Part shown: one piece after another, positions 5,024 through 54,249 of the stretch
How positions within the stretch are numbered: position 1 is the first letter of the stretch
How the letters are laid out: every line of letters begins with the position of its first letter
Assembly (NCBI GenBank): GCA_902528415.1
Contig: CABZSR010000011.1
Location: 1 to 54,249 of the forward strand
Direction: 5' to 3'
From: an uncultured SAR116 cluster alpha proteobacterium
GTDB lineage: Bacteria; Pseudomonadota; Alphaproteobacteria; Puniceispirillales; Marisalimonadaceae
DNA: 54,249 nt
Translations under genes and position numbers: made by a program
The notes under the pieces: model-generated
Database searches by the model: none
Seen by the model: the letters and a program-made list of their open reading frames with translations, nothing else
What the model was told of the DNA's origin: nothing

Positions 5024-5788
5024 ATGAATTCTAATTTACCAAAAACAATTTTTATTACTGGTGCGACATCTGGTTTTGGAAAAGCTACGGCTACATTATT
5101 TAATAAGAATGGATGGCAAACTATAATAACTGGAAGAAGAGCCGATCGTCTTGAAGAACTTGCAAAAGAATTAGGACCGAAATCGTTACCTTTATCCTTT
5201 GACGTAAGTGACAAACAATCTGTTCAAACAGCAATTAAAAATCTACCTCCAAACTTTAATAAAATATCCGTACTATGCAACAACGCTGGTTTAGCGTTAG
5301 GATTAGAAGGTGCAGATAATGCTGACCTAGATGACTGGGACCAAATGATTGATACTAATATTAAAGGATTAGTTTATACGACAAGAACTATTTTGCCACT
5401 AATGATTGATAATGGAGAAGGTCATATTATTAATCTTGGCTCTGTTGCAGGATCTTATCCTTATCCTGGTGGAAATGTTTATGGTGGTACAAAAGCATTC
5501 GTAAGTCAATTTTCGTTAAATTTAAGAGCTGATCTAGTTGGTAAAGGAATTTATGTTACATCACTTGAACCTGGTCTTGCTGAAACTGAATTTTCAATTG
5601 TTAGATTTAAAGGAGATAGAGAAAAAGCATCTCAAATTTACAAAAATACTAAAGTAATAAGCCCAGAAGATATAGCTGAAACAATTTTTTGGATTTCTAC
5701 AAGACCAAAGAATATTAATATCAACAGAATTGAAATAATGGCTGGTGATCAAGCTTTTAATCCTTTTAATGTTGTAAAAAAAGACTAG
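5024..5788 (+). CDS. ydfG: NADP-dependent short-chain dehydrogenase, YdfG type
   Basis: A 254-residue classical short-chain dehydrogenase. The Rossmann motif TGATSGFG is at 12-19, NNAGLALG at 86-93, and catalytic Ser140, Tyr153 and Lys157 (YGGTK) are present. The stretches MIDTNIKGLVY, GGNVYGGTKAFV and VRFKGDREKA closely resemble E. coli YdfG, an oxidoreductase for 3-hydroxy acids such as serine or 3-hydroxypropionate/malonic semialdehyde. GRR at 37-39 after beta-2 suggests NADP preference. It is fused head to tail with mazG. The last bases form the palindrome CTAG, shared with the stop of the convergent gene. Exact substrate is not shown by the sequence. Confidence 0.85.
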   Translation: MNSNLPKTIFITGATSGFGKATATLFNKNGWQTIITGRRADRLEELAKELGPKSLPLSFDVSDKQSVQTAIKNLPPNFNKISVLCNNAGLALGLEGADNADLDDWDQMIDTNIKGLVYTTRTILPLMIDNGEGHIINLGSVAGSYPYPGGNVYGGTKAFVSQFSLNLRADLVGKGIYVTSLEPGLAETEFSIVRFKGDREKASQIYKNTKVISPEDIAETIFWISTRPKNININRIEIMAGDQAFNPFNVVKKD

Positions 5789-6663
5789 GATGCATCACTA
5801 AGATAAGGGTGATTTTTTGGAATTGCTATTTCCTTTATGTGGTTCCAAATATCATGATTAGAAGCGGCTAATATTGGACCTTTTGAATTTAAATTAAATT
5901 CTTCTTTATTTTTTACCATATACACAACCCCACCAGCTTCTCTTATAATCAAATCTAACGGTGAATGATCCCAAGGTGTTACTCTACCATGAAATAAAAA
6001 TTGAGTTTGATTTTTTGCTAACATGATAGTTTCGATGCCAGCACTGCCAATAAAGAACCTTCTAGTATTTTTCCTTAAATTATTCAAAATAGACTGTCTA
6101 TATGGATCTGGAATACCTTTAGTTCCTCCAGAACCTAAAATCTTGCCAGAACTAAAAGAATTTATTGATAGTTTAGTAATTTTTTTAGTTTCAATATCCA
6201 TAGAAAATGCACCGAAATGTTTAAATCCGTAAACAAAAATTTTTTTCAGTGGATAATATATAAATGTAGCGATAGGAATTGAAGAACATGCAAGCGAAAT
6301 CATTGTACAAAAATTATCTTTTCCATTTATATAATTTTTAGTTCCATCTATTGGATCAACAACCCAAACTAAAGGTTTATTTAATAGACTTAAATATTGT
6401 TTATTATCTTTATAAGAACTTTCTTCGCCGATACAATTTTTAATATTTAGAAACCCATTTAATTTATTAAAAATTAATTCCTCACTTTTTTTGTCAGCAA
6501 TACTAACAAAGTCATCATTAGATGTTTTAGTAGAAATGTCATTCGATTTAAGATTGTTAAAATATTTAAGAATAACTTTTTCATTAACATCTTTCAGTAA
6601 AATATTGATATATTTAACTATTTCGTTCCTTGTTTTTTTATCATTTATAAAGTTTTGAGTCAT
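5785..6663 (-). CDS. Inositol monophosphatase family phosphatase
   Basis: A 292-residue member of the Mg2+-dependent, Li+-sensitive phosphatase superfamily. The metal-binding signature DPIDGT is at 103-108, the upstream acidic pair GEES at 79-82, and the second signature PWDHSPLDLIIREAGG near 234-249. Family members act on inositol phosphates, histidinol phosphate, 3'-phosphoadenosine nucleotides or fructose-1,6-bisphosphate, and motifs alone do not separate these here. It starts the long minus-strand block with hflX (10-nt gap). Its TAG stop overlaps that of ydfG in a shared CTAG. Confidence 0.82.
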   Translation of the reverse strand: MTQNFINDKKTRNEIVKYINILLKDVNEKVILKYFNNLKSNDISTKTSNDDFVSIADKKSEELIFNKLNGFLNIKNCIGEESSYKDNKQYLSLLNKPLVWVVDPIDGTKNYINGKDNFCTMISLACSSIPIATFIYYPLKKIFVYGFKHFGAFSMDIETKKITKLSINSFSSGKILGSGGTKGIPDPYRQSILNNLRKNTRRFFIGSAGIETIMLAKNQTQFLFHGRVTPWDHSPLDLIIREAGGVVYMVKNKEEFNLNSKGPILAASNHDIWNHIKEIAIPKNHPYLSDAS

Positions 6664-41553: not shown

Positions 41554-42825
41554 TTAGTAAATTGGAAATTTTTCACATAATTCCTTTACTTTATTATAAG
41601 TTATTTGTTCTTGCTTTTCACTTGAACTATTATTAATAAATCGATCTAGGACATCTGCGATAAAATTTCCTACTAATTCAAATTCTTTCGCTTTAAATCC
41701 TCTAGTTGTAGCAGCAGCAGTTCCAAATCTAATTCCTGATGTAATAGTTGGTGGTAAGGGATCGAAGGGAATACCATTTTTGTTACAAGTTAAACCAGCG
41801 TTCTCAAGAGCTATTTCTGCACTTGATCCAGTTATATTTTTGTCTTTCAAACTTAGTAAAACTAGATGATTGTCTGTTCCTCCTGAAACTATATCATAAC
41901 CTCTATTAATTAAGGTATTAGCGAGACACTGAGCATTCAAAACAATATTTTTAGTATAAGTTCTGAATTCATCTGTTAAAGCTTCACCAAAACCTGCAGC
42001 TTTACCTGCTATAACGTGCATCAATGGACCACCTTGAAGACCGGGAAAGACAGCAGAATTTATTTTTTTAAAAAGTTCTTCATGATTCGTTAAAATCATT
42101 CCTCCTCTTCCAGATCGAAGAGTTTTATGAGTTGTAGTAGTAACAACATCTGCAAAATGAATAGGATTGGGATGAACTCCACCCGCTACTAAACCTGAAA
42201 AATGAGCCATGTCTACCAATAAAAATGCATCAACTTTATTGGCAATTTCTCTGAATTTTTCAAAATCAATTATTCTAGAATATGCTGATCCACCAGCTAT
42301 AATTAATTTTGGCTTATATTCTATTGACAGTTTTTCTATTTCTTCAAAATTTATTAGAGCATCCTCTTTTCTAACTCCATATTGAATTGCGTTAAACCAC
42401 TTACCTGAAATATTTGGTTTTGCTCCATGTGTCAGGTGCCCACCCGCATCTAAACTCATACCAAGTATTGTGTCACCCGGTTTTAATATGCTAAGAAAAA
42501 CAGCCTGATTGGCCTGAGCACCAGAGTGAGGTTGAACGTTTGCAAAATTAGCGTTAAAAAGTTTTTTTGCTCTATCGATTGCAAGCTTTTCTACTTCATC
42601 AACAAATTCACATCCACCATAATATCTTTTGCCTGGTAAACCCTCTGCATATTTATTAGTCAAAACTGACCCTTGTGCTTGTAAGACTGATTTAGAAACA
42701 ATATTTTCAGAGGCTATTAATTCAATTTGATTTTGCTGCCTAATGAGTTCTTGATCTATAAATTTAGATAAAATTGGATCGTAGCTATTTATATCATCAT
42801 TAAAAAAACCGTCTTTATAAAACAT
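41554..42825 (-). CDS. glyA: Serine hydroxymethyltransferase
   Basis: It interconverts serine and glycine and supplies one-carbon units. The 423 aa include [60 protein letters not shown] and the PLP lysine K234 in [14 protein letters not shown]. The order rpiB-glyA-nrdR-rib is conserved in alphaproteobacteria. No glycine riboswitch can fit in the 31-bp upstream gap. Confidence 0.97.
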
Positions 42826-42856: not shown

Positions 42857-43285
42857 TTAAATTTTATTAACTCTTAAACTATGCCTTCCAGCCTCAAAAT
42901 CTGTATTTAAAAATTCATAAACTATATCCGTAGCCAAACTATCTGTTATAATTCTGCCACCTAAAGCGAGTACATTAGCATTATTATGCTTTCTACTTTT
43001 AGATGCCATTTCGACAGTTGTACATAGTGCTGCTCTAATATGCGAGTATCTATTCGCAGCCATAGAAATACCTATACCAGTGCCACAAAATAATATCCCT
43101 TGTGAATTTATATCAATTTTTAATTTATCCGATAAAAGTTTTGCGTAATCTGGATAATCAACTGCATCAAGGGAAAAGCATCCTAAATCTTCTATTGGTT
43201 GTTTTTTTTTAATTAAGAAATCTTTGACTAATTCCTTCAGTCTATAACCACCATGATCTGAAGCCAAAAAGATTTTTTTTAACAT
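42857..43285 (-). CDS. rpiB: Ribose-5-phosphate isomerase B
   Basis: It interconverts ribose-5-phosphate and ribulose-5-phosphate; ribulose-5-phosphate is the substrate of the RibB domain encoded downstream. The 142 aa show the RpiB pattern ASDHGGYRLKELV (8-20), YPDYA, the catalytic cysteine in GILFCGTGIGISMAANR and HNNANVLALGGR. A 102-bp spacer separates it from the upstream DUF1467 gene and may hold a promoter for rpiB-glyA-nrdR-rib. Confidence 0.93.
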   Translation of the reverse strand: MLKKIFLASDHGGYRLKELVKDFLIKKKQPIEDLGCFSLDAVDYPDYAKLLSDKLKIDINSQGILFCGTGIGISMAANRYSHIRAALCTTVEMASKSRKHNNANVLALGGRIITDSLATDIVYEFLNTDFEAGRHSLRVNKI

Positions 43286-43387: not shown

Positions 43388-43630
43388 TTATATATTTATT
43401 ACAAAACTTTTTAATAAACCTTCCACTACAATCCAATAAGTAAATACTGAAGGAATAAATGCGATTATAAATGATAGAAAAAATTTAAGTTTAAGGTTAG
43501 TTTTTATTGGTGCCGAGTTTGCATTTCCTTGTCTAGGTTTTTCAGAAACTTCGACGCCAAAAGGAAGAGACATAAAAAATACGATTAACCACATCATTAA
43601 ATGAACTAAAATAAAAGATAAAGTACTCAT
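43388..43630 (-). CDS. DUF1467 family small membrane protein
   Basis: An 80-residue protein with two transmembrane helices (about 3-22 and 50-74) joined by a polar loop containing SLPFGVEVSEKPRQGNANSAP, the DUF1467 pattern (core LPFGVEV). The function is not known. It lies 10 nt after RNase J, exactly where alphaproteobacteria place DUF1467 (often followed by proS, absent here). Confidence 0.85.
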   Translation of the reverse strand: MSTLSFILVHLMMWLIVFFMSLPFGVEVSEKPRQGNANSAPIKTNLKLKFFLSFIIAFIPSVFTYWIVVEGLLKSFVINI

Positions 43631-43640
43631 TTAACAATCT

Positions 43641-45295
43641 CTAAACTCTATTAACATGTACTTCAACTATTGGTCTTTTAGAAAAAGTAAACTTGAATTC
43701 TCGTCTAACTAATTTTGAAATTTTATTAACAAGTTCTTCATCTAACATTTCTTTAAAAGAAGATATATTTTCTATAAAATCCTCTATTTTAAGAGATAAA
43801 TCAATTAAAACATTTTCAACTATACTACTGTCAGACACACCTGTTTGAGATATTTGCGGAGTAATAACAAGGTTTCCATCTTTATTGATAACGATAGAAA
43901 TAGTAACAAATCCATTCCACAAAGAATGTCTTCTAGTTGTGAACCTTTCATTATTAATTGGTATTATTTCGCCTGCATCAAATACATGTGTAGTAAAATC
44001 AATTTTAGATATTACATTTGGTGTGTTTGCATTTAATTTAATAATTTCTCCATTTTTTGGTTTTATAACATTTGGCACTTGACAATTACTCGCTAAATCT
44101 GCATGTGCTTCAATATGTTCTCTAGTTCCATGAACAGGGATTGAAATTTTAGGTTTAATATATGAGTACATCTCTATTAGTTCATCTCTTGATGGGTGTC
44201 CTGACACATGAACATTTTTATCATCATCCGTAATTATTTCTATATCTCTTTCTAGAAATCTATTTTGAACTTTTAAGATTGCATTTTCATTTCCTGGAAT
44301 TTTTCTACTAGAAAATATTATTGTATCACCTTTAATAAGTTTTATAAATTTATCAGTATCCTTAGAAATTCTAGATAATGCCGAATTTGGTTCTCCTTGT
44401 GAACCTGTGGAGATTATAAGAACATTTGACCTTGGAATTAGGCTTAAATCCTTTAAAGATAATAAATCTGGAATATCTGTTAAAAATCCAACCTCTTTTG
44501 CAGCATCTATGGCTCTCAATATTGCTCTCCCTACCACCAATACTGTTCTATCAGTTTTCCGTGCAATATCTAATATTGATTTAATTCTACTTATATTTGA
44601 AGAAAAACAAGTAACAAGAACTGTACCTTTTCTATTTTTAATCGTATCGAATAACCCGGCATATGCGATATTTTCAGACGGAGTTTTTCCATTAATTAAT
44701 GCATTCGTTGAATCACAAACCATTGCTAATATTCCACTTGCACCTATGGAACGAAAGTTTTCAATATTAGTTTTTTCACTTAGATTAAATGATTTTTCTA
44801 ATTTCCAATCTCCTGAATGAAAAATGTTACCTTCTTTTGTAGAAATTAATATTGAAACTGGATCAGGTATCGAGTGTGAAGTTTGAACAGCCTTAATTTG
44901 AAAAGGACCAATTTTTAATTTTTCATTGATAGTTAGGGTATTTAATTTTAATTTTTTTTCCTTATTAGTTTCTCTCAGCTTTCTTTTAATAAGGCCATAG
45001 TAAATGATGTACCCCAAATAGGACAATTTATATCATCTGCATAATAAGGTATTGCTCCGATATGATCTTCATGACCATGAGTTAAAAATATACCTAAAAA
45101 ATCATCCCCTAAAGATTTGATAAATTCAAAATCTGGTAGTAAAACATCTATGCCTAAGTCAGTTTCATCAGGAAATGAAATGCCTAAATCTATTAAAATC
45201 CATTTATCTTTATAATGATATAGATTTGCATTCATACCTATTTCTTCGGATCCCCCAACTGGTAGAAACAATAAATCAGATTTTTTCCAATGCAT
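43641..45295 (-). CDS. rnj: Ribonuclease J, interrupted by a one-base frameshift
   Basis: RNase J is a metallo-beta-lactamase/beta-CASP endo- and 5'-exoribonuclease for RNA maturation and decay. The first frame (45295 down to a TGA at 44975-44977, 106 residues) has SEEIGMNANLY and the zinc motif HGHEDH (H73, H75, D77, H78). It ends prematurely after CPIWGTSFTMALLKES. The second frame continues as IKRKLRETNKEKKLKL through SHSIPD, HSGDWK, STGSQGEPNSALSRI and IPVHGTREH to 43641. Adding one A to the four-A run on the coding strand (44984-44987) joins them as MALLKRKLRETNK with a normal full length of about 550 aa. Either a base is missing from the sequence or the gene is truly shifted; a -1 slip of tRNA-Lys on AAAA is a third possibility. 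Confidence 0.88.
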
Positions 45296-45314: not shown

Positions 45315-46109
45315 TCAAATATGATTGTTTTTTAGAAATAAATTTACCAATCCAATTAAAATCAAATCGTCAATAATAAGATCAATTGTTTCTACAGAAT
45401 CTTTAAACAAATGGCTTAATCCACCTGTTGCTATAACTTTATAATCCGAAAATTGATCAATTGATTTAATTTTATGTATTAAGCCATCAATCATTGAAAC
45501 ATAACCCCAAAATATTCCTGACTCCATAGCATTTATAGTATTTTTACCTATTATTTCTTTAATATTAGTTAGTGATTTTATAGAAATTCTAGGAAGCCTT
45601 GCTGCTGCTAAATATAGAGCTTCCAAGGACAAATTAACACCAGGGGCAATTACACCTCCGTTATAACTTCCATCTTTACCAACTAAATCAAACGTTGTAG
45701 CTGTACCTAAATCAATTATAATTGCTGGAGATAAATTTAGTTTTGCTGCTGCATAAGAATTTACTAGACGATCAGCACCTGCTTCATTTGGATTGTCAAT
45801 ATTCACTTTTATTCCAATGTCAAAGTTTTTTTCTCCAACGACAAGTGACTTAACATTAAAATATTTTTTTATTAAAGATTTTATGTTTAAAAGTGTTTCA
45901 GGAACTACTGATGCAATGCATACACCTGTTATATCTTTCAACCGAAAATTTGATAATTTTAACATTTGTAATAACCAAGGGTAGTAAATATCATCAGTTC
46001 TTTTGGAGTCATTATTAATTCTCCAACAACTTTCTTGTCGTATATCTTTATTATAGGAGTACAATGCAAAGACGGTATTTGTGTTTCCACAATCAATAGC
46101 TAGAATCAT
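45315..46109 (-). CDS. coaX: Type III pantothenate kinase
   Basis: CoaX carries out the first step of coenzyme A synthesis. The 264 aa are an ASKHA-fold kinase: phosphate-binding ILAIDCGNTNTVFALY at the start, VVPETL, ADRLVNSYAAA, IDLGTATTFDLV and GGVIAPGVNLSLEAL. Type III enzymes use K+ and resist CoA feedback. It overlaps birA by 4 nt. Confidence 0.95.
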   Translation of the reverse strand: MILAIDCGNTNTVFALYSYNKDIRQESCWRINNDSKRTDDIYYPWLLQMLKLSNFRLKDITGVCIASVVPETLLNIKSLIKKYFNVKSLVVGEKNFDIGIKVNIDNPNEAGADRLVNSYAAAKLNLSPAIIIDLGTATTFDLVGKDGSYNGGVIAPGVNLSLEALYLAAARLPRISIKSLTNIKEIIGKNTINAMESGIFWGYVSMIDGLIHKIKSIDQFSDYKVIATGGLSHLFKDSVETIDLIIDDLILIGLVNLFLKNNHI

Positions 46110-46846
46110 AGTAAATCATCAACTGGAAAAGTAATTGACTCAACAGAATAATAATCCAAAGTACTATTTCCAACCTGCACTTGTAAACAACCATCATCTC
46201 CTAAGCCTAAGAAAACACCTTTTATTGGCTTTTTAAATGGATTAAAAGTTAAGATAATTGATTTTTCTTTATTCCTAATATGTGCATTAATTTTTTTTTT
46301 GAAATGAGAAAATCCCTCATCTTGCCAAATAAAATAATTATGAAAAATTTTATTTAAAATTTTGTATGAAATTTGCTCTAAAGACATTTTATTTTTAATA
46401 TAATCATTGAGTTTAGTTGTTTTCCATTTCATTTCATTTTTGGGCGTTTTTAAAATATTTAAACCTATACCTAAAATAATAAAATTATCAAAACCCTCTA
46501 ATAAAACACCAGAAATTTTTTTATTGTTAATTAATACATCATTTGGCCACTTCAATTCAATAAGATTTCTATTAATACCAAAATCTATTAAAGTTTCCAA
46601 TATTGTATATCCTATTAACAATGATAATTGGTGCCAATCTTTTTTGTCTTTTTTTGGTCTAAAAATAGTCGATAAAAATAAATTTCCTTCTAACGATTTC
46701 CATTTATTTTTATTCCTGCCTCTTCCATTACTTTGTGAGTAAGATAAATAAGAACTACCTTCTAAAGAACCCTTAATGGCTTCGTTTTTAGCAATATCGT
46801 TAGTACTAGAACAAGTTTCTAAAACATTTAAATCAATATTAATCAA
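46106..46846 (-). CDS. birA: Biotin--[acetyl-CoA-carboxylase] ligase (monofunctional BirA)
   Basis: It attaches biotin to carboxyl carrier protein. Of 246 aa, the biotin/ATP site is GRGRNKNKWKS followed by GNLFLS, then LKWPNDVLINNKKISGVLLEG and the C-terminal SH3-like domain GVFLGLGDDGCLQVQV. There is no N-terminal helix-turn-helix, so it is not a repressor. The start is TTG at 46846, with AAAAGGT 8 nt upstream. In other alphaproteobacteria it directly follows nuoN; here it follows the NuoL-like gene (33 nt). Confidence 0.92.
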   Translation of the reverse strand: MINIDLNVLETCSSTNDIAKNEAIKGSLEGSSYLSYSQSNGRGRNKNKWKSLEGNLFLSTIFRPKKDKKDWHQLSLLIGYTILETLIDFGINRNLIELKWPNDVLINNKKISGVLLEGFDNFIILGIGLNILKTPKNEMKWKTTKLNDYIKNKMSLEQISYKILNKIFHNYFIWQDEGFSHFKKKINAHIRNKEKSIILTFNPFKKPIKGVFLGLGDDGCLQVQVGNSTLDYYSVESITFPVDDLL

Positions 46847-46879: not shown

Positions 46880-48574
46880 TTAACTTTTTAAAGCGAGATA
46901 TGATGAGTATTTTTTAAAAAGCTTATTACGTTTTATTCTAACATAATTTCCCATTTTTGGAATTACGACGTAATTAAAAATAGATAACAGTAAACTTGAT
47001 ATACAGATAATATTTATTAGCTTTGTAAACCAATTATGTGTTTGATATTCGTATTGGATAGAAAAATCTTCATTATTATTTAATGCTAAATTCCATAAAT
47101 ATTCTGAATTTGAACCAAAAAATAAATTATTAAAAAACCAACCCGAAAAAATTAAAAATATTGCCAGTATAAATAGAATTGTTTTAGTCAAAAACATTTT
47201 TTCATCAATTTTATTATATAAATGGATATTACAATTATTTTGACACAAAAATACAATAAAAATATTTTTAAACAGAGTATATGATAATAAAAAAATATAA
47301 CAAACATATATTATTATAAGAAAAAAGATAAATATTTCATTAAATGGTAAGATTAAAGAAAAAATTAACTTTTTAGAATAAAACCCCGAGAAAAAAGGAA
47401 ATCCGATTAATGACAAAGAACTAATTAATGTGAATAAAAATGTAGATGGAGTCTTAATTAAAAGCGATCCCATTCTATTTATTTGATGTTCACCATTAAG
47501 TTTAATCATTATAATTGCAAAGCATAAGAAAAGCATTGTTAAGGATAATGTTGATGTCAGCAAATAAAATAAAGCACCATTATATGCTTTTAGTCCAATT
47601 AAAAAGATTATTATTCCGAATTGAGAAGAAGCAACATAAAATGCTAAACTTTTTAAGTCTCTTGAAATGCAAAATAATAAAGTGAAAATTATTGTTATAA
47701 TAAGTCCTAGTAGAGTAATAATATTGAAAAAATTGTAAGAGAACTGAATTAATGGTAAAAACCTCAAAAGAAAATATATTCCAGCGGGTAAAAATACTAC
47801 TGAAAATAACAAAGCAAATGTGGAATGTTTATTTTTCAAAAAGTAATATTTTGAACCCTGTTTAAAAAATTGTCTGCATCTCAATAAAAAAGATAAAAAT
47901 AAAATAAATAAAATTAACTCAAAATTACTAATTTCTAAATCAAACAATATTAGTTTCTTGTTTGTTTCAAAGTAATTACTTTCAAATATGACGTCAAAAT
48001 TGACTGAATTTGTGTATGAGTAAAGAAAGAATAAACATAAAAAAATACCTAAATCTGATAGTCTGTTATATAGAAAAACTAGATTTTTGTCATTTGAATC
48101 CATTTGTTTTTTTGAATGATTTATTAAAAAATAGGAAGACATTATAATTATTTGCCAACCTACAAATAATTGAATTAAATTATTTGAAGACACCAGTGTT
48201 AATATACCGAATATTGATAGAGATGAGTTTTTAATTATTTTTAGATCAAGTTTATTTTCTTTATATATACTTATTAAATAAATAGTGAAGATAGTTGCAA
48301 AGAAGGTTATAAATATAATTAATCCCGATACAAATAAATCTAATCTTAAAGACCAATCTATTAAAAAGTGTTCGAATTTTAAAATTGAATAAAAATAAAG
48401 TGGCAGATCATTATCAAAATTTAATAATTTTAAAAATATAAATATACTTATTATAAATATTGAACCCATAAAAGCTGAGTGCAAAATAAACAAAAATTTT
48501 GTTTTTTTAATATTTTCCAAAAACTGAAAAATTAAAAAACTCAGCAAGGGAAAAACAAACAATAATATTTCCAA
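46880..48574 (-). CDS. NuoL-like membrane protein lacking most proton-pumping residues
   Basis: A 564-residue polytopic protein (about 14 hydrophobic helices) of the NuoL/NuoM/MrpA family. Recognisable NuoL landmarks are LFVGWQ (136-141), YNRLSDLGIF (169-178), the LAFYVASSQFG stretch near 310-320, NRMGSLLIKTP (366-376) and FPFFSGFYSKKLI (392-404). Aligned by eye with E. coli NuoL, the helix-5 glutamate is Q141, the helix-8 histidine is F257, and the HxxxHxxxK of helix 11 is Y337, S341 and L345. R232 stands near the helix-7 lysine. The lateral helix appears absent. The frame is intact, so it is probably still under selection. No other nuo gene is nearby; it lies between nqrF and birA. Relic, NQR-associated subunit or ion channel are all possible. 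Confidence 0.75.
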   Translation of the reverse strand: MEILLFVFPLLSFLIFQFLENIKKTKFLFILHSAFMGSIFIISIFIFLKLLNFDNDLPLYFYSILKFEHFLIDWSLRLDLFVSGLIIFITFFATIFTIYLISIYKENKLDLKIIKNSSLSIFGILTLVSSNNLIQLFVGWQIIIMSSYFLINHSKKQMDSNDKNLVFLYNRLSDLGIFLCLFFLYSYTNSVNFDVIFESNYFETNKKLILFDLEISNFELILFILFLSFLLRCRQFFKQGSKYYFLKNKHSTFALLFSVVFLPAGIYFLLRFLPLIQFSYNFFNIITLLGLIITIIFTLLFCISRDLKSLAFYVASSQFGIIIFLIGLKAYNGALFYLLTSTLSLTMLFLCFAIIMIKLNGEHQINRMGSLLIKTPSTFLFTLISSLSLIGFPFFSGFYSKKLIFSLILPFNEIFIFFLIIIYVCYIFLLSYTLFKNIFIVFLCQNNCNIHLYNKIDEKMFLTKTILFILAIFLIFSGWFFNNLFFGSNSEYLWNLALNNNEDFSIQYEYQTHNWFTKLINIICISSLLLSIFNYVVIPKMGNYVRIKRNKLFKKYSSYLALKS

Positions 48575-48659
48575 ATTATAACTCTAACAATTTAATATCA
48601 AAATATAATAAAACAGCTACTAGCTAATTTAAATAATTAATAAATAGTTAGATTAATGA

Positions 48660-49880
48660 TTATCCACCAAAATCGTCAAGCATAATATCTTCTCTATCAA
48701 CACCTAAGTCAAGAAGCATATTAATAACCGATTGGTTCATCATTGGAGGACCACACATATAAAACTCACAGTCCTCAGGAGCTGGATGATCTTTTAAATA
48801 TTGTTCGTACAACACATTGTGTATAAATCCAGTATGACCTTCCCATTTATCTTCAGGCATTGCGTCTGAAAGAGCAACATGCCAGCTAAAGTTTGGATTG
48901 TCTTTATCTAATTTGTTAAAATCTTCTACGTAAAACATCTCTTTCTTTGATCTGGCACCGTACCAAAAAGTTACTTTACGATTTGTCTTAATTCTATTGA
49001 ATTGATCAAAAAGATGACTTCTCATCGGAGCCATACCAGCTCCACCCCCAATAAAAACCATCTCTTTATCAGTTTCCCTCGCATAAAACTCACCAAAAGG
49101 ACCAGATATTACAACTTCATCACCCGCTTTTAAGTTAAAAATGTATGATGACATTTTACCTGCAGGAATACCTGAAGAACCCGGTGGAGGTGAAGCTATT
49201 CTTACATTTAACATTACAATGCCTTTTTCGGCAGGACAATTAGCCATTGAATAAGCTCTTTCAATAGGTTCATTACTTTCGGCATTGAAATCCCATATTT
49301 TAAATCTGTCCCAATCTTCATGATATTCTTTATCAACATCAAAATCTTTATAAGACAAAGAATATTTTGGAGCCTCAATTTGTATATAACCCCCTGCACG
49401 AAAATTTACATCTTCACCCTCTGGCAACTCTAATATTAATTCTTTTATAAATGTAGCCACGTTATCATTACTACGAACTTTACATCTCCATTTTTTTACA
49501 CCAAAAACTTCTTCTGGAACCTCAATTTGCATATCTTGTTTAACTGCAACTTGACAAGATAACCTGTCACCGCAAGATGCTTCCCTTTTATTAATATGCC
49601 CTAGTTCGGTTGGAAGTATCGACCCACCACCAGCGTGAACTTTAACTCTGCATTGAGCACATGTGCCTCCACCACCACATGCTGAAGGTACAAAAAGTTT
49701 TTCAGATGCTAATGTTTGTAATAATTTACCACCTGCAGGAACTGTGACAGTCTTTTCACCATTAATAGTGATATTAACATCTCCAGAAGAAACTAATTTA
49801 CTTCGAGCTAGTACTATTATCGAAACTAAAGTTAGTACGATCATTGTAAAAAGAGTTATACCGAGAATAAAAGTGTCCAT
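48660..49880 (-). CDS. nqrF: Na+-NQR subunit F (NADH dehydrogenase, FAD/2Fe-2S)
   Basis: NqrF is the NADH-oxidising entry subunit. Of 406 aa: one N-terminal transmembrane helix (about 4-24); a ferredoxin domain with cluster cysteines C68, C74, C77 and C109 ([12 protein letters not shown] ... LSC); a FAD motif RAYSMANCP (208-216); an NADH motif [12 protein letters not shown] (278-289); and the conserved end MLDDFGG. All cofactor ligands are present. It is the last nqr gene; the small nqrM gene that follows it in Vibrio is absent, and the NuoL-like gene comes next after 85 bp. Confidence 0.97.
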
Positions 49881-49892
49881 TTATTTAAATCC

Positions 49893-50501
49893 TTAAAGTT
49901 TAACACCAGAAAAACACATAAAAGCCATAGCCATTAATCCTGCAGTAATGAATGTGATACCCAGGCCTTGCAGTCCATCGGGAATATCACTATATTTTAG
50001 CTTTTCTCTTACACCAGCCATTGTAGCTATAGCTAAAGCCCAACCAAAACCAGATGCTATTCCATAGGTTGTTGCTTCAGAAAAATTATAATCTCTTTCA
50101 ACCATGAATAATGAACCACCTAAAATTGCGCAATTAACTGTTATTAAAGGTAAAAAAATACCTAGTGCGTTGTATAAAGGTGGAAAATACTTGTCTAAAA
50201 TCATTTCTAAAATTTGAACTAATGCTGCAATAACACCAATATAGGATATCAATCCTAAAAATGTCAAATCAACATCAGGAAAACCTGCCCACGCAAGTGC
50301 TCCAGGCTTAAGCAAATATGATAATATAATATTATTAGCTGGAACGGTTATAGATTGCACTATCATTACTGAAATGCCTAGACCAATAGCTGTAGAAATT
50401 TTTTTTGATACCGCAATAAACGTACACATACCAAGAAAGAATGACAGTGCAAGATTTTCAACAAATATTGCTTTTACGGCTAATGAAATTAAAGCTTCCA
50501 T
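49893..50501 (-). CDS. nqrE: Na+-NQR subunit E
   Basis: An integral membrane subunit (202 aa, six predicted helices) homologous to NqrD and RnfA. It carries the two conserved intramembrane cysteines C26 (FLGMCTF) and C124 ([10 protein letters not shown]) that help hold an iron-sulfur centre between NqrD and NqrE. Further landmarks are [15 protein letters not shown] (core GIFLPLI) and [19 protein letters not shown]. It overlaps nqrD by one base. Confidence 0.97.
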
Positions 50502-51154
50502 TAATGAATCTCTAGTGACTGTATTTTATATTCACGTTCTTCGACTTGTGATTTCTTCCAGGAACGCACACCCCAAATTAAAAAACCAATTATAAAAAAC
50601 GCAGATGGCGGCAATAATAATAAACCATTTGGAACATACCATCCACCATTGTTAACTGGGTCTAAAATGGTTATTCCAAATAATGTACCTGAACCAAAAA
50701 GTTCTCTTACTACCCCTACGCACATTAATAACAAGCTGTAACCTAATCCATTTCCAACTCCATCTACAAAAGAATTGAAAGGAGTGTTTTTCATAGCAAA
50801 AGCTTCTGCTCTTCCCATAACAATACAGTTAGTTATTATTAATCCAACAAACACGGATAACGTCTTAGATATTTCATAAGCATATGCTTTTATTATTTGA
50901 TCAACAAGGATAACAAGAGAAGCTATAATAACCATCTGGACAATTATCCTTATAGAGTTTGGAATATAATTTCTAAGAAAAGAAATAAATAACGAGGAAA
51001 ATCCCGTAACAGCAATAACAGCTAAAGACATGACGAAAGCTACATTCAAAGAAGAGGTTACTGCTAAAGCAGAACAAATACCCAAAACCTGAAGAGTTAT
51101 AGGATTATTGTCAACTAAAGGATCGACTAGTAATTGTTTTCTAGTCTGAGACAT
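50501..51154 (-). CDS. nqrD: Na+-NQR subunit D
   Basis: A 217-residue membrane subunit paired with NqrE in inverted topology. Conserved cysteines C27 ([11 protein letters not shown]) and C110 ([16 protein letters not shown]) are present. [17 protein letters not shown] and a [13 protein letters not shown] stretch are typical of NqrD/RnfE. It overlaps both nqrC and nqrE by one base, so the whole D-E-C group should be translated in a coupled way. Confidence 0.97.
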
Positions 51155-51945
51155 TAAGCTGCTCCATTTTTTAAATTATTAAGAAATTTTTTAAAGCCAT
51201 CTTTACCCATCCAAAACTTTACTAGATTATCTACGCCATTGGAAGTAAGTGTAGCACCTGCTAATGCATCAATATGGTGTTCTTTATATTTTTGGGTTTT
51301 AGCAACTTGTATCATTAATTCGCCATTTTCATTATTTAATTTTTTACCTTTCCACTGAGCTTTCCATTTAGGATTATCAACTTCAGCACCTAAACCAGGT
51401 GTTTCAGCATGTTGATAAAATTGAAGACCGAAAATATCATTAAGGTTATCCTCTAATGCAATAAAGCCATATAATGTAGACCATAAACCATATCCATGGA
51501 TAGGTAGAATAATTTTATCAAGAGATCCATCATCTTTTTTTAAAAGATAAATAGTTGCATAGTTAGTTCTTCTTCCAATAGAAGCAGGATCATTTTCTAG
51601 AGAAACACTTAGTAATGGATCCTGAGCTGCTTTTTTATCATCAAAAATAGATGGGTCAAATTTATCAGTAAACTTACCACTATTAAGGTCCACTACTAAT
51701 GGTTGGAAGGAAGAAAATGTTTTATTTACGTCAATACCCTCATGATAAACACCTGCTACTTGTAGAATATTTTTTTGCTTATCAATTGCTTTATTAACTT
51801 CCTGTATAGACTTAAGGTTTACAGCAGCAAAAGAGACAACCATAGAACAAACAAAGCATAAAGCAGTTGCAACTATAACTGTTTTAACAATACCATCGAC
51901 AGGCATATTTTTAAATTTAGTAAATATATTATTTGAATCATACAC
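51154..51945 (-). CDS. nqrC: Na+-NQR subunit C (FMN-binding)
   Basis: NqrC carries covalently bound FMN outside the membrane. Of 263 aa: one N-terminal helix (about 19-41), then the FMN_bind domain with [14 protein letters not shown] and the attachment motif AGATLTS (229-235), where T232 takes FMN. Attachment normally needs ApbE, which is not in the window. It overlaps nqrB by 8 nt. Confidence 0.96.
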
Positions 51946-53146
51946 TTAATTTAGCCCTTCTTTTGATGTTCGCCATTACTACAAAATGATCTATCAATGG
52001 GGCAAAAATATTTCCAAATAAAATCGCTAACATCATTCCCTCTGGAAATGCTGGGTTTAAAACTCTTATCATCACAACCATGAAACCAATCAAAGCTCCA
52101 TATATATAACGACCCATATTAGTGTGACTAGCAGAGACTGGCTCTGTGACCATAAATACTAAACCAAAGGCGTAACTACCAATTACTAAATGCCAATACC
52201 ACGGCATGCTAAACATAGGGTTGGTATCAGAACCAACCCAATTTAAAAAAGAAGAAAAGACTATCATACCTAATAAACAGCCAACTATCATTCTATAGTT
52301 AGCTATTTTTGTCATCAAAAGAAAAACTAAGCCCATACCTATGGCTAGCGTTGAAGTTTCGCCTAATGATCCTTGAATATTACCCAAGAATGCGTCTAGC
52401 CAAGTTATTCCGTAATTACTAAGACTTTCATAGCCTTCAGAAGCAGAGATACTTAAGGAAGTGGCAGCAGAGTAACCGTCAACTGGTGTCCAAATTGAGT
52501 CACCTGACATGTAAGCTGGATAAGCAAAATATAAAAAAGCACGACCTGTAAGGGCAGGATTAAGAAAATTTTTACCAGTCCCCCCAAACACTTCTTTTCC
52601 AACAACTACTCCAAAGGCTATTCCGAGAGCAACTTGCCATAAGGGAGTAGATGCGGGTAAAGTTAGCGCAAAAAGCATAGAAGAAACTAAAAAACCTTCA
52701 TTAACCTCGTGTCCTCTTATTGTAGCAAACGTTACTTCACATAAACCACCTGCAATTAGTGTTATTAGATAAATAGGAAGAAAATATAATAAGCCATGCG
52801 AAATATTTGATAATAGACTTTGTGGATCAAGTCCAATTCCTGTTAATTCTAAAAGAGCAATTCTCCAACCTATGTCACCACTTGATCCAACTGATGCTAA
52901 AGCTGAGTTGGTTTGAAAACCTGTATTATATAGAGCCCACAATATACAAGGTATAGTTGATATAACGACATAAGTCATCACCCTTTTCATATCAACAAAA
53001 CTTCTAGCGTGAGGAGCTACTTTTGTTACAGTATTACTCGTAAAAAATATTGTCTCAACCATTTCAAAGATCGGATAATATTTTTCATATTTTCCACCTC
53101 TTCCAAAATGAGGTTCAATAGAATTGAAATAACTACGTAATGACAT
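51938..53146 (-). CDS. nqrB: Na+-NQR subunit B (FMN, riboflavin, Na+ path)
   Basis: NqrB is the largest membrane subunit (402 aa) and carries the quinone site and the sodium path. PHFGRGGKYEKYYPIFEM near the start, VGKEVFGGTGKNFLNPALTGRAF (core GGTGKNFLNPALTGR) and the FMN attachment motif DGYSAATSLS with T229 are present. In the usual SGAT motif the glycine is here alanine (SAAT), a mild change. The C-terminal VTEPVSASHTNMGRYIYG is conserved. It lies 3 nt after nqrA. Confidence 0.97.
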   Translation of the reverse strand: MSLRSYFNSIEPHFGRGGKYEKYYPIFEMVETIFFTSNTVTKVAPHARSFVDMKRVMTYVVISTIPCILWALYNTGFQTNSALASVGSSGDIGWRIALLELTGIGLDPQSLLSNISHGLLYFLPIYLITLIAGGLCEVTFATIRGHEVNEGFLVSSMLFALTLPASTPLWQVALGIAFGVVVGKEVFGGTGKNFLNPALTGRAFLYFAYPAYMSGDSIWTPVDGYSAATSLSISASEGYESLSNYGITWLDAFLGNIQGSLGETSTLAIGMGLVFLLMTKIANYRMIVGCLLGMIVFSSFLNWVGSDTNPMFSMPWYWHLVIGSYAFGLVFMVTEPVSASHTNMGRYIYGALIGFMVVMIRVLNPAFPEGMMLAILFGNIFAPLIDHFVVMANIKRRAKLSV

Positions 53147-53149
53147 TAA

Positions 53150-54249
53150 TTAACCTTCTTTCTCAATTTTTTGAAGACTTTCTCTCAAAGCTACACCATA
53201 TTCATATTTAGCAGGACAAGCAAAAGTACATAAAGCGACGTCTTCTTCGTCTAATTCTAAAGCACCTAAAGACTGAGCAACGTCAGTATCCATAACCAAC
53301 AATGATCTTAATAATTGGGTAGGTAAAAGGTCTTGTGGCATTAAAGTTTCAAAGACACCTGTAGGGACCATTGCCCTTCTACCACCATTTAGATTTGATG
53401 TTAAATTAAATAACTTAAAAAAACTAAACGCTGATAGTAAAACTGGCATTACAGAAAATTTGCTAGGTTGTGGTTTAATCCAACCAAAAAAATGTTTTTC
53501 TTTATCTTCTTTTATGATAGTTATTTGACGAGAATATTTTCCTAAAAAAGCCAAATCATCAACAGCATGAAACCCAGACAAGACAGAACCTGAAATTACT
53601 CTGCAATTTTCAATTTTTGGGTATTCACCTTCAAGTATATCATCTAAAGATGCACCTAAAACTGTTTTAACTAATCTTGGGTTGTTGGCAAGGGGTCCAG
53701 CAATCGATACAATGCGATTAATATTAATGAAGCCTGTTAAAAATAATTTACCTATAGCTATAACGTCTTGATAACCAATTGACCATACAGTTTTGTCAGA
53801 GTTTGGAGGATCAAGAAAGTGCATGTGCGTTCCAGGCAAACCAGCTGGGTGTGGACCAGCAAATTCATATGTTTCAAATTCACTAAATTTAATACTGCTA
53901 TTTTCTTTTTTACAAACGAAAACCTTACCATCTGTGAGGGATGAAATCTTTTTGACGCCTTCATTAAAAGCTTTTAAATCATTACTAATAATTAATTCTG
54001 CGTCTGGGCATAACGGCTCAGTGTCCATAGCCGTAACAAAAATTGAAGAAGGTTTTGAATCACTTGCTGGAACCTTTGAATAAGGCCTTGTTAGAAATGA
54101 AGTCCATAAACCACTATCAAACAAGCAATTTTTAATAAATTCAGTCTTATTTTTAATCTTTGAATGTAATTTAGTAATTGCTATTCCTTTATGATCAAAA
54201 TCCTCAACTTCTATTACAACGCTTAAAAGAACTCTTTTTTCGCCTCTAT
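53150..54249 (-). CDS. nqrA: Na+-NQR subunit A (5' end outside the window)
   Basis: NqrA is a peripheral cytoplasmic subunit near the quinone site. The frame stays open to the window edge. Residues upstream of a TTG at 54124 read RGEKRVLLSVVIEVEDFD, which matches the interior of NqrA (GAKRVLQSVVIEV in Vibrio). The gene is therefore truncated by the window and does not start at 54124. Other landmarks are SGLWTSFLTRPYSKVPA, FVTAMDTEPL, GPHPAGLPGTHMHFL, RVISGSVLSG and LGALELDEEDVALCTFACP (core ALELDEEDVALC). It ends with the family tail ESLQKIEKEG. About 80 N-terminal residues are missing. Confidence 0.96.
   Translation of the reverse strand, partial: RGEKRVLLSVVIEVEDFDHKGIAITKLHSKIKNKTEFIKNCLFDSGLWTSFLTRPYSKVPASDSKPSSIFVTAMDTEPLCPDAELIISNDLKAFNEGVKKISSLTDGKVFVCKKENSSIKFSEFETYEFAGPHPAGLPGTHMHFLDPPNSDKTVWSIGYQDVIAIGKLFLTGFININRIVSIAGPLANNPRLVKTVLGASLDDILEGEYPKIENCRVISGSVLSGFHAVDDLAFLGKYSRQITIIKEDKEKHFFGWIKPQPSKFSVMPVLLSAFSFFKLFNLTSNLNGGRRAMVPTGVFETLMPQDLLPTQLLRSLLVMDTDVAQSLGALELDEEDVALCTFACPAKYEYGVALRESLQKIEKEG

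Follow-up and report, generated by a model that had tools for sequence, protein, structure and literature searches.

A Na+-NQR operon in the complex I slot of SAR116 genomes, with a probable relic of NuoL beside it

The window analysed here is a stretch of 54,249 bp (contig CABZSR010000011.1) that makes up the entire contig C11 of a 1.72 Mb genome assembly, in 58 contigs and 73% complete, of a SAR116 marine alphaproteobacterium; among named records the nearest to it is SAR116 cluster bacterium AG-390-L20 (locus L031). At its right end lie the genes of a Na+-translocating NADH:quinone oxidoreductase (Na+-NQR, nqrA-F) and, directly behind them, a gene for a protein related to the NuoL subunit of the proton-pumping NADH dehydrogenase (complex I, nuoA-N), which we call NuoLx. 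Comparison with relatives supports the conclusion that a cassette of apbE and nqrA-F fills the interval between eamA and birA that holds nuoA-N in sister genera, and we consider it probable that the whole account, an in-place swap with a relic of nuoL left in the slot, is correct. Both the swap and the "nuoL" next to it have been published before: passages of Roda-Garcia et al. (2021, mSystems; PMC8547437) describe SAR116 genera LGC2-C and LGC2-D in which nqr has taken the place of nuo and a nuoL adjoins it. Since this headline is known, our interest is in the relic and in a plausible intermediate of the swap.

The slot and the enzyme that occupies it

From position 54249 downward the minus strand carries nqrA (cut)-B-C-D-E-F, NuoLx, birA, coaX, rnj, DUF1467, rpiB and glyA. 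The original prediction, made from the sequence without database searches, had listed these genes as far as DUF1467 in this order and on one strand, and profile searches bear the list out. The genes of the slot and its right border are as follows (the flanking genes are given at the end):

53150..54249, minus strand: nqrA, truncated to 365 codons where the contig ends (Pfam NQRA_2nd and NQRA_SLBB; 447 amino acids (aa) in L031)
51938..53146, minus strand: nqrB (NCBIfam 593 and 515 bits, above the cut-offs; full-length alignment to 7xk3_B)
51154..51945, minus strand: nqrC (above the NCBIfam cut-off; motif shared with 7xk3_C)
50501..51154, minus strand: nqrD (above the NCBIfam equivalog cut-off; cysteines as in 7xk3_D)
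49893..50501, minus strand: nqrE (above the NCBIfam equivalog cut-off; cysteines as in 7xk3_E)
48660..49880, minus strand: nqrF, NADH dehydrogenase subunit with 2Fe-2S domain (681 bits against a cut-off of 295; matches 8a1t_F)
46880..48574, minus strand: NuoLx, probably NuoL-derived membrane protein, 564 aa (TIGR01974, 8qby_L, residue comparison and substitution rates, below)
46106..46846, minus strand: birA, right border of the slot (TIGR00121, 128 bits, above the cut-off)

The borders of the slot were compared in 20 nqr loci, picked for long contigs from the 30 nqrB-bearing genomes of the order, and in 20 nuo loci from the 69 genomes of the order that have NuoH. birA follows nuoN in all 20 nuo loci, and in the seven that belong to the window's family eamA stands directly before nuoA and the order continues nuoA-N-birA-coaX-rnj (7/7); no open reading frame (ORF) matching that eamA was found in the 13 nuo loci of other families. 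In the nqr loci eamA lies to the left in 19 of 20 (L101 is without it), and a divergent apbE, 54-100% identical to the L031 copy, adjoins nqrA in all 20 (Pfam confirms ApbE in the two copies scanned), its position in the window falling past the contig end; no ORF matching this apbE was found in any of the 20 nuo loci. Four nqr loci stop before the right border (L097 and L107 after nqrF, L104 and L105 after nqrD), and in all of the remaining 16 birA lies directly 3' of nqrF or NuoLx and is followed by coaX and rnj as far as the contig extends, so the gene order is not due to chance. In the family the nqr layout is eamA / apbE(-)-nqrA-F(-NuoL-like) / birA-coaX-rnj(-rpiB-glyA) and the nuo layout is eamA / nuoA-N / birA-coaX-rnj(-rpiB-glyA). 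The in-place swap that had been proposed is thereby supported at both borders, eamA on the left and birA-coaX-rnj on the right. Single genes of the nuo loci were hidden by our ORF selection (nuoA and nuoK in L123, nuoD in L130, nuoA and coaX in L135). One nuo locus (L118, genome G065) has a 329-aa ORF at 5324-6313 on the minus strand that starts like NuoM and best matches NuoN, as if nuoM and nuoN had been joined with the loss of about 2 kb, be this real or an assembly artefact. No tRNA gene, a possible insertion site, was found in the seven SAR116 loci and the window that were scanned, and a tRNA gene as insertion site in SAR116 was dropped as an idea.

The distribution of the two enzymes agrees with a replacement of nuo by nqr. 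Among the 121 genomes of the order nqrB occurs in 30, all within two genera of one family, NuoH occurs in 69, and G119 is the sole genome with both. In the 58 genomes of the family NuoD was found in 1/40 genomes of the window's own genus, 0/2 of the second nqr genus and 7/13 and 2/3 of the two nuo genera; the corresponding figures for NqrE are 29/40 (of which two, G045 and G049, carry only a piece of the gene at a contig end), 2/2, 0/13 and 0/3. Could complex I still be present and have been missed through incomplete assemblies? The window's own genome is only 73% complete, which counts against a firm conclusion from it, and G119 does carry both nuo and nqr; however, the six family genomes with a completeness of 90% or more and a contamination of 5% or less have NqrE in every case and NuoD in none, and we regard a missed complex I as hardly credible. 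A full nuo operon elsewhere in the same genome would speak against the swap, and neither NuoH nor NuoD was found in the window's genome at its 73% completeness. Relatives with both enzymes would do so too, and only G119 is of this kind: its assembly (160 contigs, 5% contamination) contains two birA-coaX-rnj sets, and its second NuoL is 58% identical to that of other alphaproteobacteria but no more than 56% to any from SAR116; the SAR116 NuoLs set against that of the nuo sister genus (L116) are all at least 57% identical to it. For these reasons (contamination, the duplicate set and the affinity of its NuoL) we take the G119 nuo genes as foreign. The second nuo-birA-coaX-rnj set of G119 lies on contigs C96 and C68 (L092 and L093) and comes from a different alphaproteobacterium of low G+C content, a contamination.

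The NQR of the window looks functional, and is predicted to be a Na+-NQR. The set nqrA-F is present (nqrA is full-length in L031), and nqrB, C, D, E and F all exceed their NCBIfam equivalog cut-offs. The likeness to Na+-NQRs of solved structure (7xk3 and 8a1t) extends over full-length matches of subunits B-F, the flavinylation motifs, the NqrD/E cysteines and the NqrF domains, as follows: the NqrB motif DGYSAATSL aligns with DGYSGATAL of 7xk3_B, NqrC keeps the motif GATLTSNGV against 7xk3_C, the NqrD cysteines lie within LGICSAL and TNCIVMG (matching 7xk3_D) and those of NqrE within GMCTF and VNCAI (matching 7xk3_E), and NqrF, with its 2Fe-2S and NADH domains, matches 8a1t_F over its full length (E 1.7e-190). 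We take the threonine motifs of NqrB and NqrC to be the sites of covalent attachment of flavin mononucleotide (FMN), served by ApbE, and the NqrD/NqrE cysteine pairs and NqrF domains to have their functional roles in Na+-NQR.

State, selection and descent of NuoLx

NuoLx has its best family match in the NuoL profile TIGR01974 (NDH_I_L), at 214 bits and under the cut-off of 407.5, so "NuoL-like" is correct and "NuoL" is not. Its best match of solved structure is 8qby_L, NADH dehydrogenase subunit L (1.4e-40), to which it is related by family and by alignment across about 450-530 residues. NuoLx can be aligned with NuoL roughly as far as the beginning of the lateral helix and stops some 80 residues short of where NuoL does; the missing stretch is the lateral helix and transmembrane helix (TM) 16. 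Residues were compared between 16 distinct full-length NuoLx proteins, one per genome (L063 equals L031 and was counted once), and 50 NuoLs (20 from SAR116 and 30 from other alphaproteobacteria), the assignment of alignment columns to TM helices being our own. Four residues that are invariant in the NuoLs (50/50 each) have fared as follows in NuoLx: Glu-TM5 is kept in 0/16 (Tyr 9, Gln 6, His 1), Lys-TM7 is Arg in 16/16, His-TM8 is kept in 0/16 (Leu 9, Phe 4, Tyr 2, Ile 1), and Lys-TM12 is Asn in 10, Lys in 5 (among them the window's copy) and His in 1. Passages of PMC7613608 single these four out as crucial for proton pumping by antiporter-like subunits. NuoLx also differs from the NuoL of a complex I in its company, for the window's genome is without NuoH and NuoD and NuoD was not found in 39 of the 40 genomes of the genus. 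Because the key Glu, Lys and His are gone or changed and the lateral helix is gone, we conclude from the sequence that NuoLx cannot be a normal proton pump. A selective loss of proton-path residues was rejected: among NuoL invariants 18/30 charged or His residues and 78/152 others are lost (Fisher p 0.43), a general loss. A single-sequence AlphaFold2 model of NuoLx was of no use (mean predicted local distance difference test score 48). A second antiporter-like protein, some 570 aa long and matching NuoLx weakly, occurs in nuo-bearing as well as nqr-bearing genomes of the order (L193-L198).

NuoLx is under purifying selection. In 50 of the 120 pairs of copies the synonymous distance (dS) is below 0.8, and in 46 of these, which do not involve the two most divergent rows, the ratio of nonsynonymous to synonymous change (dN/dS) is 0.21-0.38 with bootstrap upper bounds all below 0.5. 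In ten chosen pairs the values are 0.01-0.12 for nqrB, nqrC and nqrF and 0.14-0.37 for birA (0.14-0.27 without G119), and in eight pairs they are 0.07-0.13 for coaX. The window and L031 copies of NuoLx are 90% identical; between them 22.8 stop codons would be expected under neutrality and 0 are seen. Given this selection, NuoLx has presumably been retained for something other than normal proton pumping.

In the 16 nqr loci that span the interval NuoLx is whole in 12, cleanly absent in 4 and broken in none. The four loci free of it (L096 and L113 in the window's genus, L101 and L102 in the second) have a nqrF-birA gap of 68-103 bp; in four further genomes (G016, G053, G067 and G083) the end of NuoLx lies before birA and the gene is cut by the contig end. 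On the 18 scored rows of the NQR tree (below), where the G053 row was scored as present and three rows were left unscored, presence and absence require two changes, which could be either two losses, as fits a relic present since the swap, or one gain and one loss. The original prediction had the swap "leaving one NuoL-family gene"; such a gene does stand beside nqr, but the statement is incomplete in that its key proton-path residues and C-terminus have been lost and it is absent from part of the clade.

Where did NuoLx come from? Its place, with nqrF on one side and birA on the other, is that of the former nuoL-nuoM-nuoN. When 51 NuoLs are scored against a NuoLx profile, SAR116 sequences take all of ranks 1-18, the first four being those of the nuo sister genus; the two remaining SAR116 NuoLs come at ranks 21 and 27. 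The AT-rich foreign NuoL of G119 ranks 29 of 51, so composition alone does not explain the likeness of NuoLx to SAR116 NuoL. A 49-row tree, from which the G119 NuoL was left out, places NuoLx within SAR116 NuoL (100/99) and beside that of its own family (89/100), and both SAR116-diagnostic columns (2/2) are in the SAR116 state. The alternative, that NuoLx arrived by transfer, with the cassette or later, gains from the fact that the trees do not force local descent, but the nqr loci of other alphaproteobacteria offer no source of it: in the 11 compared (L174-L184, two of which reach no further than about the end of nqr) no NuoL or NuoLx match follows nqrF, the intact nuo operon of G381 (below) excepted. 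With SAR116 NuoLs scoring best against its profile and birA adjoining it, we judge transfer unlikely. Descent of NuoLx from the local, in-place nuoL is in our estimate quite likely, although not proven.

Several observations weigh against this descent or against the relic having a use. The branch on which the placement of NuoLx depends is very long, at about 6 changes per column; at 17 family-diagnostic columns it has the family state in 3 and the outside state in 2; a tree with NuoM as outgroup puts it near the root, which we read as long-branch attraction. The approximately unbiased (AU) test leaves a SAR116 NuoL group without NuoLx unrejected (p 0.276), and with another sample the tree that holds SAR116 NuoL together without NuoLx lies 30.7 log units above the free search (p-AU 0.939), while joining NuoLx to the foreign AT-rich G119 NuoL, included in that sample, is also unrejected (p 0.537). 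These trees used 11 of the 16 distinct NuoLx rows (NuoM-outgroup and 49-row trees) or 8 (other-sample tree) and 22 of the 30 other alphaproteobacterial NuoLs, or 14 (other-sample tree), with near-copies among the SAR116 NuoLs dropped. As to use, the loss of charged and His residues is no stronger than that of other invariants and so may be general decay, and four pairs that involve the two most divergent NuoLx copies have dN/dS of 0.50-0.76.

The present role of NuoLx is the most conjectural part of the account. Our best guess, a tentative one, is that NuoLx serves as a scaffold or assembly aid beside NQR. The more specific idea that NuoL was exapted after the swap as an accessory membrane subunit of complex I descent, moving no protons, of or beside Na+-NQR is possible but doubtful. 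NuoLx might instead be a functionless, dying pseudogene, decaying under weak constraint and caught before stop codons built up. Its dN/dS is well above that of the nqr genes, invariants of all kinds have been lost and it is cleanly absent from 4/16 loci; on the other hand it is always either whole or cleanly absent and never broken in those 16 loci, its close-pair dN/dS is near that of birA, and none of the expected stop codons is present between the window and L031, all of which makes this reading somewhat unlikely. Finally, NuoLx could function by itself, as one subunit, in Na+(K+)/H+ antiport and turn the Na+ gradient of NQR into a proton gradient in the manner of Mrp-type subunits. It belongs to the Mrp/NuoL fold family and adjoins a Na+ pump, and D79, R171, D174, R232, K374 and K436 are identical in 16/16 copies, but the residues described as key in the passages of PMC7613608 are not kept (Glu-TM5 and His-TM8 nowhere, Lys-TM7 always as Arg, Lys-TM12 in 5/16) and its neighbours are nqrF and birA rather than the Mrp subunits among which a member of an Mrp antiporter would be expected; we think this quite improbable.

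Source of the cassette and a plausible INTERMEDIATE

Few genomes of the class carry nqrB (9/385 including the window's own). In a tree of concatenated NQR sequences six loci from other alphaproteobacteria form the sister group of the SAR116 cassette (support 99 by a quick method); their NQRs are 69-71% identical to the SAR116 cassette, and those of 8 non-alphaproteobacterial loci 55-59%. One alphaproteobacterial locus, L181, groups among the non-alphaproteobacterial rows. The tree contains 14 such rows, and the phylum sample holds 77 nqrB-bearing genomes, 72 of them outside the class, so that donors are thinly sampled. Within these rows the tree and the identities favour alphaproteobacteria, the nearest NQRs sampled being alphaproteobacterial, and a gammaproteobacterial donor, which the original prediction had suggested looking for in such trees, is not supported. 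A divergent apbE is present in 5/6 of the sister loci and was not recognised in the sixth; in SAR116 it likewise lies upstream of nqrA, whereas apbE follows nqrF in 7/8 non-alphaproteobacterial loci and was not recognised in the eighth.

All six sister genomes have NuoH, and in five of them it is more than 300 kb off or on another contig. The other is G381 (L175 and L257), in which NQR and complex I operons lie back to back before birA-coaX-rnj and tRNA genes flank the NQR cassette. The order is clpX, lon, HU-like gene (these three identified by eye), tRNA-Val, two small ORFs, apbE(-), nqrA-F, two tRNA-Asp, nuoA-N, birA, coaX and rnj. This is the state that a swap would be predicted to pass through before nuo was deleted, and it is a plausible model of the intermediate, but it is an analogue and not an ancestor because G381 belongs to another lineage.

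We infer the following order of events. In the common ancestor of the two SAR116 genera a cassette of divergent apbE and nqrA-F would have entered between eamA and nuoA; afterwards nuoA-K, the 3' end of nuoL, nuoM and nuoN would have been lost, and Na+-NQR would therefore now hold the complex I slot before birA-coaX-rnj. The encoded enzyme should be a canonical Na+-NQR in which electrons pass from NADH to NqrF and through iron-sulphur and flavin carriers to ubiquinone, whose reduction is coupled to Na+ export, with ApbE predicted to attach FMN to NqrB and NqrC. NQR would thus take over NADH oxidation, the exported Na+ would be usable for symport and osmotic balance, and the quinol would feed the remaining chain. 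NuoLx would be the surviving body of the old nuoL, kept as a membrane scaffold or assembly aid beside NQR, in a role dispensable enough for its absence in two lineages.

Coupling ion, earlier reports and flanking genes

The original prediction went on to say that the swap puts Na+ in the place of H+ as primary coupling ion. For the whole chain this is overstated: the ATP synthase subunit AtpE of five genomes of the window's genus and two of the second nqr genus shows few residue differences from that of three genomes of the nuo genera, and no Na+-binding signature was found in AtpE of those genomes. As AtpE is nearly identical in nqr and nuo genera, ATP synthesis most likely still runs on protons, with Na+ added at the entry enzyme, and with an H+-coupled ATP synthase retained Na+ and H+ circuits would run side by side.

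The clade, the replacement and the nuoL beside nqr are the same as in the passages of PMC8547437, which likewise have two nqr genera and nuo in others of the group; our two nqr genera seem to fit LGC2-C and LGC2-D. Those passages are silent on the state of that NuoL and its partial absence, on apbE and on what borders the slot at either side. They name HTCC2181 as nearest, at 67.5% average identity; the alphaproteobacterial cassettes found here have 69-71%, with averages computed differently and HTCC2181 not in our comparison. Searches of open-licence full text found only PMC8547437 to join nuoL, the nqr operon and Alphaproteobacteria, and, among the papers listed, no match for NuoLx as an in-place nuoL relic with lost residues yet purifying selection, for alphaproteobacterial nearest NQRs, or for apbE-nqrA-F before an intact nuoA-N. 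For IMCC1322, a cultured strain of SAR116, passages of PMC11813361 report only complex I. Marinimicrobia are another marine lineage that switches between the two NADH dehydrogenases, exchanging NQR and NDH-1 (Getz 2018; PMC6143742), but there NQR is ancestral and nuo acquired, and the passages concerned mention no shared slot or NuoL relic.

The loci compared provide states for the swapping of a core respiratory enzyme, namely nuo alone, cassette with intact nuo (G381), nqr with a NuoL relic and nqr alone, with the right flank constant throughout. If it is such a relic, NuoLx would be a natural experiment on what remains when an antiporter-like subunit is released from the demand for proton transfer, and it would bear on the functions of NuoL besides pumping.

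The genes to the right of birA are as follows:

45315..46109, minus strand: coaX, type III pantothenate kinase (NCBIfam and Pfam profile matches)
43641..45295, minus strand: rnj, RNase J, reading frame interrupted here (profile matches; intact in L031)
43388..43630, minus strand: DUF1467 protein, 80 aa (reading frame; Pfam PF07330 match of the L031 copy)
42857..43285, minus strand: rpiB, extending the conserved right flank (identified by eye; same position in relatives)
41554..42825, minus strand: glyA, extending the conserved right flank (identified by eye; same position in relatives)

The 85-bp gap between nqrF and NuoLx gave no better RNA fold than shuffled sequences (z -0.92). The rnj gene is divided in the window into ORFs at 43641-45026 and 44975-45295, and in L031 it is an unbroken 551 aa; the frameshift is probably a sequencing or assembly error. 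Contigs of the genus often break in or beside the nqr-NuoLx locus (for example in G016, G020, G045, G049, G053, G067 and the window), perhaps a sign that strains vary at this locus.

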